DNA of 61,255 nucleotides. Origin: Marivita sp. (GTDB taxonomy: Bacteria; Pseudomonadota; Alphaproteobacteria; Rhodobacterales; Rhodobacteraceae). A program made the position numbers and the translations under genes. The DNA is taken from positions 1 to 61,255 of the forward strand of contig NZ_JALEGT010000108.1 of assembly GCF_022763305.1 (NCBI RefSeq), in the 5' to 3' direction. Positions 6,932 to 54,400 of the stretch are shown here, piece after piece. Under the pieces are notes generated by a model. It made no database searches and had not been told where the DNA came from. It saw only the letters and a program-made list of their open reading frames with translations. Position 1 is the first letter of the stretch. The number at the start of each line of letters is the position of its first letter.

Positions 6932-7588
6932 ATGGTTCTGACGGTTCAAGACGTGAAGAAATCCTTTCCCGGCGCCGAGGGGGAGGTGCCGGTCCTGCGC
7001 GGCGTGTCCCTCACGCTCGAGCGGGGCGAGACACTTGCGCTTACCGGAGAGTCGGGATCGGGCAAGAGCACGCTCTTGCATCTCATCGGTGGGCTGGACC
7101 GGGTGGACGGCGGGTCGATCACCGTTGCCGGGCGCGAGATCACCGACATGAGCGATACCGACCGCGCGGCGCTGCGGCGCACCGATGTCGGCGTGATCTT
7201 TCAACAGTTCAACCTCATCCCGTCGCTCACGGTCGAGGCCAATATCGCCTTTCAGGCCCGTCTTGCCGGAACCTACGACGTTGCCCATGCCAAGCGCCTG
7301 TCGGCGGCGCTGGGACTGACCGATCACCTCTTGAAATATCCCGAGGCGCTGTCGGGCGGCCAGCAGCAGCGCGTCGCCATCGCCCGCACGCTCACCGCGC
7401 GGCCCAAGCTGGTGCTGGCGGACGAGCCGACCGGCAATCTCGACGAGGCGACGGCGGCCGAGGTGCTGGGCCAGATGCTGGCTCTGGTTCGGGAAACCGG
7501 AGCAGGCCTGCTGATGGTGACACATTCGCAAAGTGTTGCCCGCCGGATGGAACGGCACGTGCATCTCAGCCAGGGGCATGTGGTGTGA
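6932..7588 (+). CDS. LolD/MacB-type ABC transporter ATP-binding protein (AttE-like)
   Basis: A 218-residue nucleotide-binding subunit with Walker A GESGSGKS (39-46), Q-loop IFQQFN, signature LSGGQQQR (139-146) and Walker B LVLADE (159-164). The TGNLD after Walker B is typical of the LolD/MacB/FtsE group. It overlaps the permease gene by 4 bases (GTGA), and the lipocalin-like gene follows. The set matches the AttEFGH arrangement, with the two permease halves fused. Its likely task is moving a lipoprotein or lipid out of the inner membrane. Confidence 0.92.
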   Translation: MVLTVQDVKKSFPGAEGEVPVLRGVSLTLERGETLALTGESGSGKSTLLHLIGGLDRVDGGSITVAGREITDMSDTDRAALRRTDVGVIFQQFNLIPSLTVEANIAFQARLAGTYDVAHAKRLSAALGLTDHLLKYPEALSGGQQQRVAIARTLTARPKLVLADEPTGNLDEATAAEVLGQMLALVRETGAGLLMVTHSQSVARRMERHVHLSQGHVV

Positions 7589-9981
7589 CCTGGGTCACGC
7601 TGACCGCTCTGCTGTCGCATTGGCGCTGCAATCGGTTGCAATTCTTTGCACTTGTTGCAGGTCTGGCACTGGCGACCGCGCTCTGGTCCGGAGTGCAGGC
7701 GATCAATGCCGAGGCCCGCGCGAGCTATGATGCCGCCGCCGCCACGCTGGGTGAGGGGCAGTTCGACCAGCTTGTGCCCCGCAGCGGGGACCGGATTGAC
7801 CAGGCCACCTACATCGCGCTGCGCCGCGCGGGCTGGCAGGTGTCGCCGGTGCTCGAAGGTCGGCTGCGCACGAACGCGGGCTCCGTGCGGCTGGTCGGTC
7901 TCGAACCGCTCACGGCGCCCGGAACGATTGCCCCGGTGGGGATGTCCGAAGACGCCAATCTGGACGACTTTCTCACGCGGGGCGTGCTCTTTGCCGCGCC
8001 GGATGTGGCCGATGCGCTTGGCAGGACGGTCGCGCAGAGGATCATCACGGACCCCTCGATTGCGCCCGGCGTCGCGTTGACGGATATCGGCGTCGCGCAA
8101 TCGCTTCTGGACGCCGAAGGCCGGCTGAGCCGCCTGATCGTTTCACCCCTCCAGCCCATGGGTCTGCCGCCATTGGAGGACATTGCGCCCGGCCTGTTGC
8201 GCCAACCTGCGCAGGATGCGGGCGCGGACCGGCTGACGGACAGTTTCCACCTCAACCTGACCGCCTTCGGTCTTCTGAGCTTTGCGGTCGGCATCTTCAT
8301 CGTGCACGGCACCATCAGCCTCGCCTTCGAACAGAGGCGGAGCATGGTGCGGACCTTGCGCGCCTTGGGTGTGCCGCTCAGGACATTGATCGGACTGACG
8401 GTACTGGAACTCTCCCTGTTCGCGCTTGTGGCGGGTGGGATCGGCGTGGCCCTGGGCTACGTCATTGCGGCGGTTCTGCTGCCGAACGTGGCGGCCACGC
8501 TTCAGGGCCTCTATGGGGCGTCCGTGGCAGGAACGTTGCAGCTGCGCCCGGACTGGTGGCTGTCGGGGCTGGCGATTGCGGTGCTGGGCACAGGGCTCGC
8601 GGCCTCGGGCGCGCTTTGGGCGATCGCGCGCATGCCGCTTCTCTCCAGTGCACGGCCCCGCGCATGGGCTGTGGCGTCAGGTGTCACCGCCCGGCGACTG
8701 GGGGCGCTCGCTGTGCTGCTTTTTCTCACCGGGATCGGTATCGCGATCTGGGGGCAGGGTCTGACACTCGCCTTTGCGCTCTTGGCATGCCTGCTGATCG
8801 GTGCAGCGCTGATCCTGCCGCTTCTCCTGCGCAGCGCGGTCACGCTGGCGGATCGTCAGGCGCGGTCTGCGATGTGGCAATGGTTCTGGGCCGACACGCG
8901 CCAGCAGGTGCCGGGGATGAGCCTTGCTCTGATGGCGCTCTTGCTGGCCACGGCGGCCAATGTTGGCGTGTCTACAATGGTGTCGAGCTTCCGCGTCACT
9001 TTTGTGGATTTTCTCGACCAACGACTTGCGCCCGAGCTGTTCATCCGCATCGAGGACACCGCGCAAAGCGCTGATCTCGAAGCCTTTCTTCTGACCAACG
9101 CTTCGGACGTGCTACCGCTTCTGACGGTCGATACAGATGTGGCGGGGGTGCCGACGGAACTCTACGGCGTCCGGGTCGGGCCGACCTATCGCGAGAACTG
9201 GCTCTTTCTCGATGACACGCCGGATGTCTGGGATCGGGTCGAGGCGGGACGCGCGGTGGTGGTCAGTGAACAACTGGCACGTCGCGCCGGGCTCTGGACC
9301 GAGGACACTGTCACCCTGGCGCCGGACCTCACTCTGCCGATTGCCGCCATCGTCGCCGATTACGGCAATCCGTTGGGGCAGGCCCTGATCGCCGAGCCGT
9401 TGTTCCGCCAGCTTTACCCGGACGTGGTGCCGGTCTCTTTCGGGGTTCGGTCCGACGATCCCGACAGGCTGCGCCGCACGCTGACCGAGGAGTACGGACT
9501 GCCCGACGCGGCGATCACCGATCAGGCCCGCATCAAGGCCTTCTCGCTTGAGGTGTTCGAACGCACCTTCACCGTCACGGGCGCGCTCAACGTGCTGACC
9601 CTTGCGGTTGCGGCCTTCGCCATCCTGATGAGCCTGTTGACCCTCGCCTCCATCCGGGTGCCACAGCTGGCCCCCGCCTGGGCGCTCGGGCTCACCCGGC
9701 GCAGGCTGGGACAGCTCGAACTGCTGCGCGCGGTGGTGCTGGCGCTGGTGACGACGGTGCTCGCGATCCCGCTGGGTCTGATGTTGGCCTGGGTGCTGTT
9801 GGCCTATGTGAATGTCGAGGCCTTTGGGTGGAAACTGCCGATCTACCTGTTCCCCGCGCATTATGCGATGCTGACGGTCTTCGCGCTGGCCGCGGCAGCG
9901 CTGGCGGCGCTCTGGCCCGCGATCCGCTTGGCGCGCACACCGCCGTCCGACCTGCTCAAGGTGTTTGCCAATGACCGTTAG
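7585..9981 (+). CDS. FtsX-domain ABC transporter permease (AttFG-like fusion)
   Basis: A 798-residue inner-membrane protein. An N-terminal TM helix (about 18-36) is followed by a large extracytoplasmic domain, then FtsX-type blocks of three helices near residues 230-340 and again at the C-terminus, with more helices in between. This is the duplicated layout of large LolC/E-like permeases. The start is GTG at 7585, within the GTGA overlap with the ATPase stop. It overlaps the next gene by 11 bases. Together with the ATPase it would form a mechanotransmission-type transporter acting on periplasmic or outer-membrane cargo. Confidence 0.88.
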   Translation: MTWVTLTALLSHWRCNRLQFFALVAGLALATALWSGVQAINAEARASYDAAAATLGEGQFDQLVPRSGDRIDQATYIALRRAGWQVSPVLEGRLRTNAGSVRLVGLEPLTAPGTIAPVGMSEDANLDDFLTRGVLFAAPDVADALGRTVAQRIITDPSIAPGVALTDIGVAQSLLDAEGRLSRLIVSPLQPMGLPPLEDIAPGLLRQPAQDAGADRLTDSFHLNLTAFGLLSFAVGIFIVHGTISLAFEQRRSMVRTLRALGVPLRTLIGLTVLELSLFALVAGGIGVALGYVIAAVLLPNVAATLQGLYGASVAGTLQLRPDWWLSGLAIAVLGTGLAASGALWAIARMPLLSSARPRAWAVASGVTARRLGALAVLLFLTGIGIAIWGQGLTLAFALLACLLIGAALILPLLLRSAVTLADRQARSAMWQWFWADTRQQVPGMSLALMALLLATAANVGVSTMVSSFRVTFVDFLDQRLAPELFIRIEDTAQSADLEAFLLTNASDVLPLLTVDTDVAGVPTELYGVRVGPTYRENWLFLDDTPDVWDRVEAGRAVVVSEQLARRAGLWTEDTVTLAPDLTLPIAAIVADYGNPLGQALIAEPLFRQLYPDVVPVSFGVRSDDPDRLRRTLTEEYGLPDAAITDQARIKAFSLEVFERTFTVTGALNVLTLAVAAFAILMSLLTLASIRVPQLAPAWALGLTRRRLGQLELLRAVVLALVTTVLAIPLGLMLAWVLLAYVNVEAFGWKLPIYLFPAHYAMLTVFALAAAALAALWPAIRLARTPPSDLLKVFANDR

Positions 9982-47570: not shown

Positions 47571-49385
47571 ATGCCTGCCGACACCACTTCTGATCAGGAT
47601 CTTGCCGCCAAGGAACGCAGCTCCGGCCTGCGCACGATCCGCAAGGTGGGACCGTATCTCTGGCCGGATGACAAACCCTGGGTCAAGCAGCGCGTGGTGA
47701 TTGCGTTGGTGAGCCTTGTGCTCGCCAAGATCGTCAACCTGCTGGCACCCTGGCTGTTCGGGCAAGCCGTGGATCAGCTCTCCGGCACGGCGTCGGACCT
47801 GCTGCTGGGGGGTGTCGGTCTGACCATTGCATATGGGTTTGCCCGGCTGATGAACGTGGGCTTCCAGCAATTGCGCGACGGGGTGTTCGCGCGTGTCGGT
47901 CAGCGAGCCCTGCGGTCGCTGGCGCTCGAGACCTTCACCCATATCCACCGTCTGTCGATGCGCTATCACATCACGCGCAAGACCGGCGGGTTGAGCCGCA
48001 TCATCGAACGCGGCGTCAAGGGTGTCGACTTCCTCCTGCGGTTCATGCTGTTCAGTGTCGGCCCGCTGATCCTCGAACTTGCGCTGGTCTGCCTCGTTCT
48101 GCTGTGGCTGCTGGATTTCCGCTACATGGCGGTCGTGCTGGTCACGATCGCAATCTATGTGTGGTTCACCTTCAAGGTCACGGAATGGCGCGTCCGTTTG
48201 CGCCGCGAGATGAACCAGCAGGACACCGATGCTAACCAGAAGGCTATCGACAGTCTTCTGAACTTCGAAACAGTCAAGTATTTCGGCGCCGAGTCCCGCG
48301 AGGCTGCACGCTATGATCAGTCGATGCAGGCCTATGAAGGGGCCGCCATCAAGACCGCGACGTCGCTGGCGTTCCTCAATTTCGGGCAGAGCCTGATCAT
48401 CACGACTGGGCTGGTCATCGTCATGGTGATGGCCGCCCTCGGTGTGCAGGCGGGCACGATCTCGGTCGGCGATTTCGTGATGGTGAACGCCTACATGATC
48501 CAGATCACCATGCCGCTCAATTTCCTCGGGACGGTGTACCGCGAAATTCGTCAGGCGCTTGTCGATATGGGCGAGATGTTCGACCTTCTGGAACAACCGC
48601 AGGAGATCTCGGACAAGCCCGGTGCGCCGGCGGTCGCAGTCACGTTGGGGGCGGTGCAGTTCGACAACGTGAAATTCGGCTATGACCCCGCGCGCCCGAT
48701 CCTCAAGGGGATTTCGCTCAACGTCCGCTCGGGCGAGAACGTGGCCCTGGTGGGGCCGTCCGGGTCGGGCAAATCGACCATTGGTCGGCTGTTGTTCCGC
48801 TTCTACGATGTGACGGATGGGGCCGTGCGGATCGATGGGCAGGATGTGCGCGACGTGACGCAGGCCAGCCTGCATGATGCCATCGGCGTGGTGCCGCAGG
48901 ATACGGTGCTGTTCAACGACACGATCCGCTACAACATCGCCTATGGCCGCGCAAATGCAACCGAGGACGAGATCATTGCGGCGGCCCGCGCGGCGCAGAT
49001 CCACGATTTCATCCTGTCGCTGCCCGAGGGCTATGACACGATGGTGGGCGAACGCGGTCTGAAACTGTCGGGCGGGGAAAAGCAGCGTGTCGGCATCGCA
49101 CGGACGCTTCTCAAGAACCCGCCGATCCTGATCCTCGACGAAGCGACCTCGGCACTGGATTCCGAAACCGAGTCCTCCATTCAGGGCGCGCTCAAGCGCG
49201 CGGGCGAGGGGCGCACCGTCATCACCATCGCGCACCGGCTGTCCACCATTGCCGATGCTGACCGTATCGTCGTTCTGGAAAACGGGCAGGTGGTCGAAGA
49301 AGGCACCCATGACAGCCTTCTGGCCAGCCATGGGCGCTATGCGACGCTCTGGAACCGCCAGATGCAAGAAGAAGAGGCGGCCTGA
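47571..49385 (+). CDS. Atm1-type ABC exporter (ABCB7/HMT1 family)
   Basis: A 604-residue half-transporter: six TM helices (about 45-320), then the ATPase with Walker A GPSGSGKS (395-402), signature LSGGE (499-503) and Walker B ILILDE (519-524). The segments TRKTGGLSRIIERG and NFETVKYFGAE are diagnostic for the Atm1 group, which exports glutathione-type compounds or metal-thiol conjugates. It would work as a homodimer in the inner membrane. It follows the HerA-like gene after 63 bp. Confidence 0.93.
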   Translation: MPADTTSDQDLAAKERSSGLRTIRKVGPYLWPDDKPWVKQRVVIALVSLVLAKIVNLLAPWLFGQAVDQLSGTASDLLLGGVGLTIAYGFARLMNVGFQQLRDGVFARVGQRALRSLALETFTHIHRLSMRYHITRKTGGLSRIIERGVKGVDFLLRFMLFSVGPLILELALVCLVLLWLLDFRYMAVVLVTIAIYVWFTFKVTEWRVRLRREMNQQDTDANQKAIDSLLNFETVKYFGAESREAARYDQSMQAYEGAAIKTATSLAFLNFGQSLIITTGLVIVMVMAALGVQAGTISVGDFVMVNAYMIQITMPLNFLGTVYREIRQALVDMGEMFDLLEQPQEISDKPGAPAVAVTLGAVQFDNVKFGYDPARPILKGISLNVRSGENVALVGPSGSGKSTIGRLLFRFYDVTDGAVRIDGQDVRDVTQASLHDAIGVVPQDTVLFNDTIRYNIAYGRANATEDEIIAAARAAQIHDFILSLPEGYDTMVGERGLKLSGGEKQRVGIARTLLKNPPILILDEATSALDSETESSIQGALKRAGEGRTVITIAHRLSTIADADRIVVLENGQVVEEGTHDSLLASHGRYATLWNRQMQEEEAA

Positions 49386-49411
49386 GGACAACACGACGGG
49401 AATGACCACAG

Positions 49412-49432
49412 GAGGGTCATAAAATGGCCCTC
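49412..49432 (+). terminator. Hairpin after the Atm1-type gene
   Basis: GAGGGTCAT / ATGGCCCTC (49412-49420, 49424-49432) around AAA, with one G-T pair, 26 bases after the stop and before the exosortase gene. No T run follows, so it may only partly stop transcription. Confidence 0.5.
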
Positions 49433-49483
49433 TCAAATGATCAGTGTTTGCGCCGTTCGTAGGGTGAAGAGCAAAGTGGTCAC

Positions 49484-51061
49484 ATGTCGAGATTGATTTT
49501 TTCGCAAATTCTTTTGCTGTTCGAAGCCATCGCGATTGTCGCCCTCTACCAGGTCTTCAGCGATTTCGAGTGCCGACAGACCAACCTGTTCTTCCTCTGC
49601 CGGGGTGTTCGTCTGAGCATGGTGCTTGGCCTGTGTCTGGCCGCTGGCTTTGCGCTGTTGCTGTTCTTTCAGCCCGGCCTGCGACAGGGCCTTGTGGACC
49701 GGGCCGCCACAGGCAGCGACACCGCGCGCCGCTGGGCAGGGGTTCATCTGGCCGGTCTTGCCCTTGTCGCCGCACCGACGCTGATCCTGTCGCAGGGCCA
49801 GCTGGTTGACCACGCATCCATTTTCCTGTCGGCGCTGGCGCTTGGTGGCGTGATTGCGCTGGTCGGGGCTGCGCTCTGGCTCATGCCGGCCCGCGCATGG
49901 CGCAGCTTTTTCGCCGATCACGCGCGCATTTTGGTGCCGACCATCGCCATCACCCTGCTGATCCCGTCCTTGGCCTGGGCCATCAGCCTGGCCTGGAACT
50001 GGTTCGAGACGCTCCAGCTGGCGACGTTCTACAGCGTTGCCATCCTTCTTGCGATCCTCGGCAATGATGTCTTCGTCAATCTCGAACGCGAAACCATCGG
50101 CATCGTCGATTTCTTTGTCGAGGTGGCGGAATCCTGTTCCGGCATCGAAGGGCTGGCTTTGACCACGGCCTTCATGGCGATCTACGCCCTGATGATGAAA
50201 GACGATCTGCGGATGGGGCGGTTCTGGCTGATCGTCTGGCCCGCGGCGCTGCTTCTGAGCTTCATCCTGAACGTGGTCCGCATCACCGTCCTGATCACAA
50301 TCGGCGCCTTCGTGTCACCCGAGCTTGCGGTCAACGGCTTTCACAGCTTTGCAGGCTGGCTGTCCTTCACCCTTCTGGCGCTGGTGATCCTCACCATCGT
50401 CAACCTGCTCCCAGGCCTCAGCAAGACGCCCCGGACGGCGCAGCGCGGCGACGCAGCCCCATTGACCGAGGACAGGTCGGCCGCCTTCATCGTGCCATTC
50501 CTCGCCTTCATGTTCTCGGGTCTTGTCGTGCACACGTTCTCGCAAACACCCGAGGTCTGGTACGGCGTACAGGTCGGTGCGATGGCCTTGGCACTTTGGG
50601 TGTTCCGGAAGCCCGTGCTGGCGCTGACACGCGACATCGACCTGATCGCCGTCGGGGCAGGTGTGCTGATCGGCATCGGCTGGATCGTCACCTCCGAACC
50701 GGCAGAGCCCTATGCCTCGCTGGCCGAGTTCGGCACGCTTGCCTTGACCCTGTGGGTGGTGCTGCGGGTGATCGGCACGTCGATCCTTGTTCCCGTCGTG
50801 GAAGAGCTGTTCTTCCGGGGCTATCTCTTCAGCCTGATCGACGATGGCAGCCTGCTGCGTCGCGGTCTGGCCATCGCCATCACGACTGCAGGCTTCGCGG
50901 CCTTGCATTCGCGCCCGCTCGCAGCGGCGATTGCCGGGATCATCTTTGCTCTGGTGCTGCTCCGCCGAGGGCGGCTCTTCGACGCGATCCTGTGCCACGC
51001 CGTGGCCAATGCGCTGATCGCGGCAGCGGCGCTTGCCACGGGACAGTGGTCCTTGATCTGA
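49484..51061 (+). CDS. xrtE: Exosortase E/protease fusion of the VPEID-CTERM system
   Basis: A 525-residue multi-pass membrane protein made of two enzymes. The exosortase half has the catalytic set Cys218 (ESCSGIEG), Arg266 (NVVRITV) and His287 (FHSFAGW). The C-terminal half is a CPBP (CAAX-type) intramembrane protease: EELFFRG (440-446), FAALHS (H475) and CHAVAN (H505, N509). This fusion is characteristic of the known exosortase E/VPEID-CTERM family. It would cut the VPEID-CTERM substrate and may transfer it to an unknown acceptor. The matching substrate gene lies 75 bp away in convergent orientation. Confidence 0.95.
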   Translation: MSRLIFSQILLLFEAIAIVALYQVFSDFECRQTNLFFLCRGVRLSMVLGLCLAAGFALLLFFQPGLRQGLVDRAATGSDTARRWAGVHLAGLALVAAPTLILSQGQLVDHASIFLSALALGGVIALVGAALWLMPARAWRSFFADHARILVPTIAITLLIPSLAWAISLAWNWFETLQLATFYSVAILLAILGNDVFVNLERETIGIVDFFVEVAESCSGIEGLALTTAFMAIYALMMKDDLRMGRFWLIVWPAALLLSFILNVVRITVLITIGAFVSPELAVNGFHSFAGWLSFTLLALVILTIVNLLPGLSKTPRTAQRGDAAPLTEDRSAAFIVPFLAFMFSGLVVHTFSQTPEVWYGVQVGAMALALWVFRKPVLALTRDIDLIAVGAGVLIGIGWIVTSEPAEPYASLAEFGTLALTLWVVLRVIGTSILVPVVEELFFRGYLFSLIDDGSLLRRGLAIAITTAGFAALHSRPLAAAIAGIIFALVLLRRGRLFDAILCHAVANALIAAAALATGQWSLI

Positions 51062-51085
51062 CCCGCTCGGATGTAACCTGCGCAT

Positions 51086-51117
51086 AAAAAAAGCATCCGA
51101 CGCGAACGTCGGATGCT
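51086..51117 (-). terminator. Rho-independent terminator of the VPEID-CTERM gene
   Basis: Perfect 11-bp arms AGCATCCGACG / CGTCGGATGCT (51092-51102, 51107-51117) with a four-base loop. Read on the minus strand the stem is followed by seven T, 20 bases after the substrate gene stop. The opposite side lacks a T run, so it mainly serves the minus strand, although it also faces xrtE. Confidence 0.9.
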
Positions 51118-51136
51118 CCTGCTTCGTGAAAGGTCG

Positions 51137-51310
51137 TTACGCCTGCTTGCGACGACGCACTTCCCAAGCCAGAAGCATAGCAGCGGCAACCACGGCAATC
51201 GCAAGTGCACCACTGCTTGCATCGATTTCAGGCACGGACGACACCGTTGTAGGTGTAGTCGGAGTCGTGCTTCCGCCCCCGAAAAAGATGCGCCAGCTAT
51301 CCCAGAACAT
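51137..51310 (-). CDS. VPEID-CTERM sorting-domain protein, 57 residues
   Basis: A very short protein that begins MFWDSWRIFFGGGST and continues with a Thr/Pro-rich linker. VPEID sits at residues 26-30, then a TM helix (about 34-49) and the basic tail VRRRKQA. This is the tripartite C-terminal sorting signal of exosortase substrates and the exact VPEID type that pairs with exosortase E. An AGGAGGT ribosome site is just upstream. There is no clear N-terminal signal peptide; the N-terminus before the signal is only about 25 residues. It was missing from size-filtered ORF calls and is found by reading the minus strand. Confidence 0.93.
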   Translation of the reverse strand: MFWDSWRIFFGGGSTTPTTPTTVSSVPEIDASSGALAIAVVAAAMLLAWEVRRRKQA

Positions 51311-51426
51311 AGGTACCTCCTATATAGCAGCGATTCGTTGCTACACAAAAATGCCTCAATCTCCAAGCTTTTGGAGGTTTGTGTTCACAATTGCGCAACA
51401 ATCTTCACGTGTGCCGTAACAAACTA

Positions 51427-51449
51427 AAATGGGCGGAAACAGTGCCGCC
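51427..51449 (-). terminator. Possible weak terminator of the RND permease gene
   Basis: GGCGG / CCGCC (51432-51436, 51445-51449) with an 8-base loop, followed on the minus strand by CATTTTAG, 3 bases after the permease stop. The stem is short, so the assignment is tentative. Confidence 0.35.
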
Positions 51450-51452
51450 ACA

Positions 51453-54400
51453 TTATTCGGCAGCCCGTACGGGCGGCGTGCCTTCGTTCGCCTGCGAACG
51501 TTGCAAGACCCGCTTGAGATCCTCCAGCCCCGGCGCACCGGTCAGGCCGTCCTCATAGTCCGTCTCGGGGCGCGTGTCCTCATCGTCCCACAGAATGGTC
51601 GGCGATTTCAACTGATGCGCAGCCCGCTGCAGCGCCCAGTCGCGTCCGGCACGGCTTGCACTGCCGCCACCCAGCCGCGCCAGCAGGCGGAAGAACCAGA
51701 GCGCATAGGTCGTGAACCAGACCCGGGCCGCCAGCATGGACGGGGTGAAGACCAGCGTCAGCACCGTCGCGATGCCCAGACCGAACACGACGGCGGTCGC
51801 CAGTTGTTTCCACCAGAGCGCGGTCGGGCTGTCGATGGAATACCCGCCGCCGAAGAAATCGAGGCTGAGGCCGAACATCATCGGCGCAAGGCCCGCCATC
51901 GTGGTGATCGTGGTCAGCAGCACCGGACGTATGCGGTCCTCCGCCGTGCGCACGATGGCCTCGATCCGCGGCATGTAGCGTGAGTATTCCTGATACGTGT
52001 CGATCAGAACGATGTTGTTGTTCACAACGATCCCCGCGAGCGCCACGATACCCGTGCCGGTCATGATGATGCTGAACGTCTGATCCATGACCAGCATCCC
52101 GATCAGCACGCCCGTGGTCGAGAGGACCACCGCCAGAAGAACCAGCAGCGCATTGTAGAAGCTGTTGAACTGCGCCAGCAGGATGATGAACATCAGTCCC
52201 AGAGCCGCCGCGAAGGCGCTACTCAGGAAGGCCTGGCTCTCGGCCTGTTCCTCCTGATCACCGGTCCATTCCCAGTCGATGCCGGGCAGGGGATCGGTCT
52301 CGAGCCACGTGGTGAGTTCGGCAATCCGTTCGTTGGCATTGATCGGCACGATCCGCGCGCCGGTCTCAAGCGCCGCAGCAACGTCCGAAGTGGCAAGTGT
52401 CGATGTCCCGTAAAGCGTGTATGTCGTCCCGTTGGGGCCGGTGATGTCACCGCCCGCGCGCTCCTGCAGCGTGGCAAGGGTGCCGGGGCCATCGGGCCCA
52501 TCCGTCACCACCTTGAACAGGCCGGGTTTCACATCCGCCTTCACATCGAAGTGGCGCTTCTGATCGACCCGGTTGATCTCGGCCAGCTTGGCCACCGGTT
52601 TGCGCGTGATGAAATTCGACAGCGGCACCAGCCCGTCAGTGGTCCGCACACGCAGCGTGTCGAGCGTTGACAGAACGCGGTCTTCCTCGGGCAGGCGCAC
52701 CCGGATCTCGATTTCCTCGTCCGAGCTGTCCACCCGCATGGTATCAAGCAGGATGCCGCGTGTCACAAGCTGCACCATGGCGCCCACAGTGGCAACGTTG
52801 GCGCCGTAGCGCCCGGCCTTCTCCACATCGACGTCGATCTGCCAGTCGATGCCGGGCAGGGGCAGCGTGTCTTCGATCAGCGTCAGGCCGGGTGTCGCCT
52901 CGAATTTCGCGCGCGCTTCCTTGGTGGCGTCGATCAGCCCGTCCCAATCATCCGCCTTGAGGCGCAGATGAACGGGCTTGCCGCTGGCCGGGCCACGGTT
53001 CTGAGACAGGATTTCGATCTCGACACCGGGAATGACCTGCAATTGCTCGGTCAGTTCCTCAAGCACGATATCCCCGTCCAGATCGGGCCGGTCGGCGCGG
53101 TCTTCCCACGGGATCGTCTCAAGCTGCACCTGGCCAATCGTGTCCTTGGGCACTGCAGCGCCGCTCGCATCGGTGTTGAGCCCGCCTTCACCGGCAAAGG
53201 AAAACGCGTTCTTCACGCCGGGATGGGCCAGAACGATCGTCTCGGCGCGGCGCACCAGCGCATCCTTTTCCTCGAGGCTGAGGTTGCCGCGCGCGCGGAC
53301 ATAGACGATGGCCTGTTCCGGTTCGGATTCGACGAAGAATTCAACGCCGTTGTTGTTCTCGCCGAAATAGCCGAACACCATCACGACAAAGCCCAGAACG
53401 GCAGCCGCCGACACGATCGGCATGATCGGGTTGCCGGCGATGAACTTGATGAAATAGCCGAACAGGGTCCGGCGACGCCGGCCCTCGACCGTTTTCCGGG
53501 TCCATTTGATCGACGCGGCGTCAAGCACAATGGAGGCAAGGACCGACCCAACTAGAAAGAGCGCGACACCGGGAAGATGCGCAGCCGTGCCTTCGGCAAT
53601 CGGAGGGAAGAGGAAACCCGGATCCAGCAGCATCAACGCACCGATGAAGAGCATCCCCAGAACCACCGGCACCAATGCCGCCCGCACCAGCCAGGGCGTG
53701 CGTGCGCGCAAGCCTTGGGACGCCCGGTCGAGCATCCGCGAAAAGCGGCCCGTCACCCCGCCCATCACCGGCAGGTAGACCAGCGCCACCACCAGAGAGG
53801 CCGACAGCACGAAGATCAGCGTGACCGGCAGCATCCCCATGAATTCGCCCGGCACACCCGGCCAGAACAGCATCGGCAGGAAGGCGCAGAGCGTCGTCGC
53901 GGTCGAGCTGACCACCGGCCAGAACATCCGCTTGGCGGCCTCGACATAGGCGTGCATCGGGCCGGAGCCTTCACTGATGCGCTTGTCGGCATATTCCACG
54001 ACCACGATGGCCCCATCGACCAGCATGCCCACCGCCAGGATCAGACCGAACATCACGATGTTCGAAATGCTCACCCCCATGATCGACAGGAACACGAAAC
54101 ACAGCAGGAACGAGGTCGGGATGGCAAACCCCACCAGAAGCGCCGCGCGCAGGCCAAGAGAGGCCAGAACCACGATCATCACCAGCGCGATGGCGGTCAG
54201 AACCGACCCCTCAAGCTGTTTGACCATGCTGTCCACGATCCGCGACTGGTCGTTTGATGTGCCCACGTTCACCGCCGCGCGCAGTTCCGGCGGCCAGCTC
54301 GCCTTGGCGGCTTCCACTTCGACCTTTACCGCATCCGCCGTGTCGATCAGGTTGAAGCCCTTGCGCTTGACCACCTGCAGGGCCAGCGTCTTTTCCCCGT

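Follow-up and report, generated by a model that had tools for sequence, protein, structure and literature searches.

Here, we report that a 61,255-nucleotide stretch of DNA from Marivita sp. (contig NZ_JALEGT010000108.1, hereafter the window; C29 in our numbering of the contigs) bears the exosortase E/VPEID-CTERM pair, in which the gene xrtE, encoding an exosortase fused to a CPBP-type protease, adjoins a gene for a dedicated microprotein of 57 residues that is nearly all sorting tail. The family as such is already known, as the initial annotation of this DNA had stated, and the pair is named in NCBIfam (TIGR04162 for the enzyme, TIGR04161 for the substrate); what we add are the pairing counts, the anatomy of the exported segment, the pairing of its cysteines, the changes in signal-peptide state and a tail marked at both ends. 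Judging from the sequences, we tentatively read the pair as a reduced form of the known system, in which cutting or transfer by a periplasmic exosortase site would be combined with a second cut by the CPBP site to give an aromatic-headed peptide; we put this reading a little below an even chance.

The enzyme matched TIGR04162 with 523.2 bits (cut-off 150) over residues 10–525 and TIGR03008 with 105.9 bits (cut-off 81.05) over residues 334–525, and the Pfam search placed the exosortase core (PF09721) at residues 52–308 and the CPBP/Rce1-like protease domain (PF02517) at residues 423–511. To place it among its relatives, we scanned genome contigs and obtained 80 loci, 65 of them with an exosortase E relative, hence 66 enzymes together with that of the window. 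The exosortase triad proposed by the initial annotation is kept almost without exception (C218 in 65 of the 66 aligned enzymes, R266 and H287 in all), which upholds its description of the fusion. As for the CPBP residues, E440, E441, R445 and H505 are conserved in all 65 rows with residues at these positions, and H475 and N509 in 64 of 65; a larger alignment of 82 enzymes agrees on the conservation of both active sites. By this measure, both proteolytic modules of XrtE appear to be under selection, and the fusion enzyme looks active. The microprotein, MFWDSWRIFFGGGSTTPTTPTTVSSVPEIDASSGALAIAVVAAAMLLAWEVRRRKQA, has no cysteines and matched TIGR04161 with 64.9 bits (cut-off 33) over residues 26–55.

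The enzyme and its substrate clearly occur together. A tail-bearing open reading frame (ORF) was found near the enzyme at E < 1e-3 in 58 of the 66 loci, being convergent and downstream in 50 and upstream in eight, so the convergent layout, which the initial annotation took as a means of separate control, is common but not needed for function. With a looser search, tails were also detected in L107 and L115, as was one without the motif in L110, but none at L068, L089, L096, L104 and L114 (L089 and L114 end less than 50 bases from the enzyme match). Rubellimicrobium arenae (L094, L096) bears two xrtE copies, with a substrate detected near one only. Among 198 genomes of the family, TIGR04162 was matched in 24 and TIGR04161 in 25; both were present in 21, xrtE alone in three, VPEID alone in four and neither in 170 (Fisher p 2e-21). 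A profile built from 57 tails, which was applied outside the xrtE genomes to G048 and G134 only, detected a candidate substrate in all 24 xrtE genomes, many of which had supplied a tail to it (G141 and G017 had not); the candidate in G017 was weak (E 0.009). Partial second matches in G034 and G078 were left out of the substrate counts, and VPEID matches in G104 and G183 were attributed to chance, being parts of longer frames of another kind. Twenty-two of the 24 genomes have one substrate, G027 has four and G141 six, so that the single substrate proposed initially is the usual state but not a universal one. In the window genome (4.43 Mb in 121 contigs, 99.72% complete), there is one match each to TIGR04162, to TIGR04161 and to the exosortase core TIGR04178, and the check for further VPEID-CTERM proteins that had been suggested gave none beyond the one TIGR04161 match. 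The gene xrtE is also found on Rhodobacterales plasmids, with twelve public records carrying the gene name; the small tail protein beside it is labelled 'hypothetical protein' in L192, L193 and L196.

The sorting tail is conserved at both of its ends. In an ungapped alignment of 77 distinct tails, P2 is present in 76, E3 in all 77 and W24 in 62, and position 25 is occupied by E in 74, D in two and A in one (acidic in 76 of 77), with no gap between E3 and E25. The W24-E25 pair at the cytosolic end of the tail is thus a second conserved spot beside VPEID, one that is absent from the initial annotation. As a control, seven genomes of the same class provided PEP-CTERM tails (30 loci, 26 tails extracted, one of the 26 doubtful), and an acidic residue before the basic cluster was seen in 0 of 26. 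Tails outside the tail model gave a similar picture: of eight plasmid loci fetched, seven had a tail, with E25 in six (two of the six being close Paracoccus relatives), the tails of four large G141 proteins have WE at the same spacing, and the L052 tail has E25. The earlier proposal that the tail is handled in two steps is better argued now that both ends of the helix appear to be marked, but it is still short of proof.

To relate the two marks to the two active sites, we considered the membrane topology of XrtE, for which the AlphaFold2 model has a mean predicted local distance difference test score of 91.3. Loop charges averaged over 58 enzymes alternate, placing the N-terminus inside, the C218 loop outside (net −3.05), the inter-domain linker inside (net +0.84) and the last basic loop inside (net +1.55). 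This assignment, based on loop charges and helix positions, assumes that the helix 175–191 does not span the membrane. It predicts that the C218 exosortase site lies at the periplasmic face and that E440/E441, H505 and N509 of the CPBP site are located in the membrane half facing the cytosol; if this topology is true, the two sites of XrtE face opposite leaflets, matching the two marks of the tail. At the first predicted periplasmic loop, C30 is Cys in all 59 and C39 in all 58 rows with a residue there in the 66-row alignment, and in 73 of 75 and 75 of 76 rows of the larger set (L052 lacks both, L050 lacks C30), which suggests that this pair forms a disulfide. No solved structural relatives of XrtE were found by single-sequence or profile search. 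When the complete model was compared by Foldseek, nothing matched at E ≤ 0.001, not even the CPBP homologue in the PDB, and nothing was concluded from this comparison.

The part of the substrate preceding the tail was analysed in 79 distinct microproteins, with the exported segment counted after removal of the signal peptide where present. It comprises 5–59 residues (median 19) in the 60 substrates with a signal peptide and 19–31 residues (median 22) in the 19 without one. Tryptophan accounts for 159 of the 1651 segment residues (9.6%, vs. 1.8% in conserved neighbouring ORFs) and is present in 48 of the 79 segments. The aromatic residues are concentrated in the first halves of the segments (221 of 807 residues, vs. 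37 of 844 in the second halves), and the segment therefore consists of a head and a linker. Cysteines number zero in 63 segments, two in 14 and one in two, a 0-or-2 pattern that was unmatched in 10,000 length-weighted reshuffles in which kinship was uncontrolled; likewise, two G027 substrates scored as signal-peptide-free carry exactly two cysteines each, and among seven plasmid-locus segments, whose ends were set by eye, three have two and four have none. This pairing points to an oxidising, outer location of the exported segment. In the Marivita-type relatives, the head is nearly unchanged in four of five (L054 differs), and the linker varies in length. The head codons of four relatives show 2–4 synonymous differences vs. 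1 amino-acid change, and the tail codons of five relatives 11–13 vs. 1–2.

The absence of a signal peptide from the window substrate is another feature that the initial annotation did not mention. The start of the microprotein is fixed by the AGGAGG located five bases upstream and by an in-frame stop at 51320–51322 on the minus strand, and an upstream signal peptide is therefore not possible. A signal peptide is present in 60 of the 79 substrates of the relatives. On quick trees of the enzyme, built with 61 rows (55 with known state) and again with 70 rows (64 with state), the signal-peptide state changed at least three times: in the Marivita type together with G027, in a Roseovarius group and in a Natronohydrobacter group. 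The count alone cannot separate gain from loss, but loss is the simplest reading, because each group is nested among enzymes with signal-peptide-bearing substrates and the aromatic head directly follows the initiator Met. In G027, three substrates beside xrtE (L035 = G027:C78; L007 = G027:C75) were scored as signal-peptide-free, and the fourth, located elsewhere, has a signal peptide.

Under the reduced-form reading, the microprotein would be inserted such that the first ~25 residues face the periplasm and the basic end faces the cytosol, the tail helix probably serving as a reverse signal-anchor because the substrate lacks a signal peptide; YidC is a candidate inserter. On the periplasmic side, VPEI(D/S) would then be recognised, and the substrate cut there, by the exosortase site (C218, R266, H287), and the head-linker peptide would be handed to an acceptor in the envelope, by homology with the lipid joining of archaeosortase A. 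A second cut in the same substrate may be made by the fused CPBP site, for which W24-E25, near the cytosol, would be the putative recognition mark; the most likely purpose of this cut would be to clear or license the helix that is left. The product would be an aromatic-headed peptide of ~25–30 residues, either bound to the cell envelope or released from it. A bolder version, which we regard as rather unlikely, is that XrtE is a two-faced sorting machine for envelope-bound micropeptides, in which a single polypeptide has two unrelated active sites on opposite sides of the membrane, reads a fixed-length, two-marked tail and conjugates an aromatic or disulfide-looped peptide of 5–60 residues, and that in three lineages the signal peptide was dropped, leaving insertion, orientation and processing to the tail alone.

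Several observations weigh against the reduced-form reading or parts of it. The orientation of the CPBP domain is a prediction from the loop charges and helix positions given above, and the loop after H475 is ambiguous in this respect (net +0.57). Moreover, for the myxosortase, itself a CPBP protease, a cut just beyond the Cys preceding the tail helix, near the periplasmic end, has been proposed (PMC11980579), so that a cytosolic orientation of the CPBP site is not a necessity. Of the 17 tails that seeded the tail model, 16 have E25, which biases the model towards this residue; E25 is missing in L017, L115 and the Salipiger plasmid tail and is shifted by one residue in L107, and it is therefore not strictly required. 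In favour of the reading, the only row with mutated catalytic residues, L110 (Henriciella, 7455–9614; C218Y, H475Y and N509A), has beside it an ORF that retains a clearly related helix with an RER end and E25 but has lost P2 and E3; this is, however, a single locus on a long branch, and the neighbouring ORF also lacks a recognisable signal peptide. As to the loss of catalytic residues in close relatives, which the initial annotation held to be decisive, the sole substituted enzyme of the 66 is thus distant, but an intact tail stands beside a broken enzyme frame in L074 (Roseovarius gaetbuli), either through an error of sequencing or through genuine recent loss. Substrate-like proteins are also found in two genomes without a detected xrtE. 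One, in G048 (L134 = G048:C36), is VPEID-like, its exported segment being longer and highly charged, and the only exosortase match in this genome is a different protein of 551 residues, which we take to be an EpsH-EpsI fusion; the other, in G134, lies ~2.3 kb from the contig end. Finally, an aromatic head is not found throughout: Trp is missing from 31 of the 79 segments, including every one of the 13 with non-VPEI/MD tails, of which six have the Cys pair.

A rival account is ordinary surface anchoring, with XrtE as a general exosortase of exopolysaccharide loci, the microprotein as a leftover or a minimal surface protein, and the CPBP module aiding the same periplasmic-side cut, as the myxosortase suggests it can. 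In G141, five open frames of 203–539 residues with VPEV...FLWERRR-type tails lie near a distant xrtE (L168, C1:1196000–1210000), with glycosyltransferase matches close to them, and the sixth substrate is 1.1 Mb away from xrtE; the same kind of tail is thus present in larger frames. Glycosyltransferase or sugar-transferase genes lie ~3–11 kb from xrtE in three of the 24 genomes (G141, G080 and G174), and polysaccharide-type genes lie near xrtE in three of the eight plasmid regions (Rhodovulum, Alloyangia and Leisingera) and were not seen in the other five. Set against this, the matches listed include no PF02397 or PF00534 on the window contig and, for the remaining 20 genomes, some of whose contigs are short, none at a distance of 20 kb or less from xrtE. 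Nor would a leftover be expected to keep its head and tail, in both of which the synonymous changes exceed the amino-acid changes. On balance, we think surface anchoring improbable; an origin of the two-gene pair in exopolysaccharide loci, with later independence, is a reasonable guess.

The initial annotation also suggested that the released peptide is itself the product. Taken as a general rule of design, this is not supported: the four substrates of G027 and the six of G141, which are encoded in frames of 203–539 residues, speak for a sorting enzyme with small substrates in this branch rather than for a peptide-release enzyme by design. Put more sharply, the product would be very short and aromatic at its head. 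In a second rival account, the two cuts would free this head peptide as a diffusible signal, an antimicrobial or an adhesive peptide. The short segments, many of them Trp-rich or Cys-paired, suit this proposal, as does the fact that no gene family recurs next to the pair in over 23 of the 66 loci: when ORFs of at least 90 residues (plus the substrates) were clustered within up to 8 kb of the enzyme, no third conserved partner was found beyond an RND efflux pair (23 and 21 loci), whose recurrence looks like shared location, not function. By the same analysis, no receptor, immunity or transporter gene recurs beyond that pair; in other branches, tails of this type belong to large sorted proteins, passage across the outer membrane is left without explanation, and we consider peptide export quite unlikely. 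Still more doubtful is a membrane microprotein that acts intact and is switched off by XrtE through degradation, in spite of three points in its favour: the protein consists almost entirely of membrane tail, its gene has a strong ribosome-binding site and a terminator of its own, and some substrates leave just 5–9 exported residues. Against it, the exported part seems to be under selection, judging by the composition of the segments and the pairing of their cysteines, and XrtE has the exosortase motifs typical of sorting enzymes.

Organisms that make many large substrates are difficult material for work on exosortases; here, there is one enzyme and one substrate of 57 residues. With such a small, two-marked substrate, the action of an exosortase, its joining partner and the reason for the CPBP fusion become directly testable, and the repeated loss of the signal peptide, if true, offers a natural test of whether a sorting tail directs its own insertion.

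The features of the window locus are collected in Table 1. The intergenic hairpin is stable (z −2.57; 1 of 200 shuffles folds equally well), and its T run is present on the minus strand only, for which reason it is read as the terminator of the substrate gene; the terminator seen between the genes by the initial annotation is thus real as a fold but serves the substrate strand. A simple terminator scan of the region gave four terminator-like sites vs. 2.4 expected, and the call therefore rests on the fold, not on the scan. No sigma-70-like promoter was matched in 49300–51600, no RNA element of Rfam at gathering thresholds in 49380–51500, and no defence system by PADLOC at E ≤ 0.1. The nearest named relatives belong to Marivita, with enzyme identities of 81% (uncultured Marivita) and 80% (M. 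lacus).

Table 1. Features of the xrtE locus (positions in the window).
Feature	Position	Strand	Basis
xrtE, exosortase E/CPBP-protease fusion, 525 aa, ATG start	49484..51061	+	ORF, NCBIfam/Pfam matches, AlphaFold2 model
Codons C30 to C39, Cys pair flanking the first predicted periplasmic loop	49571..49600	+	Alignments; putative disulfide
Exosortase active site: C218 (50135-50137), R266 (50279-50281), H287 (50342-50344)	50135..50344	+	Conservation; loop charges
CPBP active site: E440-E441-xxx-R445 (50801-50818), H475 (50906-50908), H505 (50996-50998), N509 (51008-51010)	50801..51010	+	Conservation
Intrinsic terminator of the substrate gene: stem 51093-51116, T run 51092-51086	51086..51117	-	Fold
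VPEID-CTERM microprotein, 57 aa, no signal peptide	51137..51310	-	ORF, TIGR04161
Sorting tail VPEID...AWEVRRRKQA, E3 and E25 at fixed spacing	51140..51235	-	77 aligned tails and PEP-CTERM control
N-terminal segment of the substrate: aromatic head FWDSWRIFFGGG, then Ser/Thr/Pro linker	51236..51310	-	Marivita-type relatives
Ribosome-binding site AGGAGG, 5 bases before the substrate ATG	51316..51321	-	Sequence; site scored 6/6

Our literature search found no paper pairing an exosortase with VPEID-CTERM, and the string VPEID appeared only in an unrelated context; the 2012 archaeosortase/exosortase survey, which probably describes the family, lay outside the coverage of this search. Judged by title, papers on exosortase with Rhodobacter or Roseobacter included none on exosortase E/VPEID-CTERM. 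The window pair clearly belongs to this system: it has the same fusion and an adjoining VPEID-CTERM protein, both models score far above the cut-off, and the catalytic residues, the CPBP motifs EExxxR, H and HxxxN and the adjacent convergent substrate gene are all present. It differs in that the substrate has no signal peptide.

Among the other sorting systems, EpsH/PEP-CTERM shares the Cys-Arg-His exosortase core and a tail made of a motif, a helix and a basic cluster. In 2006, Haft and colleagues described four EpsH-CAAX protease fusions, a signal peptide in 97% of PEP-CTERM proteins after start-site review, and an epsH gene that is nearly always among exopolysaccharide genes (PMC1569441). 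The window pair departs from this pattern in the lack of a signal peptide and in the acidic residue before the basic cluster, which the PEP-CTERM tails lack; moreover, its genome has no TIGR02595 (PEP-CTERM) match at E ≤ 0.001, and none of the PF02397 and PF00534 matches listed lies on its contig. Archaeosortase A/PGF-CTERM has a related core and a tripartite tail, and its substrates receive a C-terminal lipid; it differs in being archaeal and in acting on large surface proteins, and the available part of the source mentions no fused protease (PMC7157517). The myxosortase MrtX resembles the second module of XrtE: it is a CPBP intramembrane protease of 239 residues, without an exosortase domain, that is needed for the cleavage of a C-terminal sorting tail (PMC11980579). 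The invariant Cys of MYXO-CTERM is absent from the window substrate, yet the latter scores 16.7 against TIGR03382 (cut-off 15.85).

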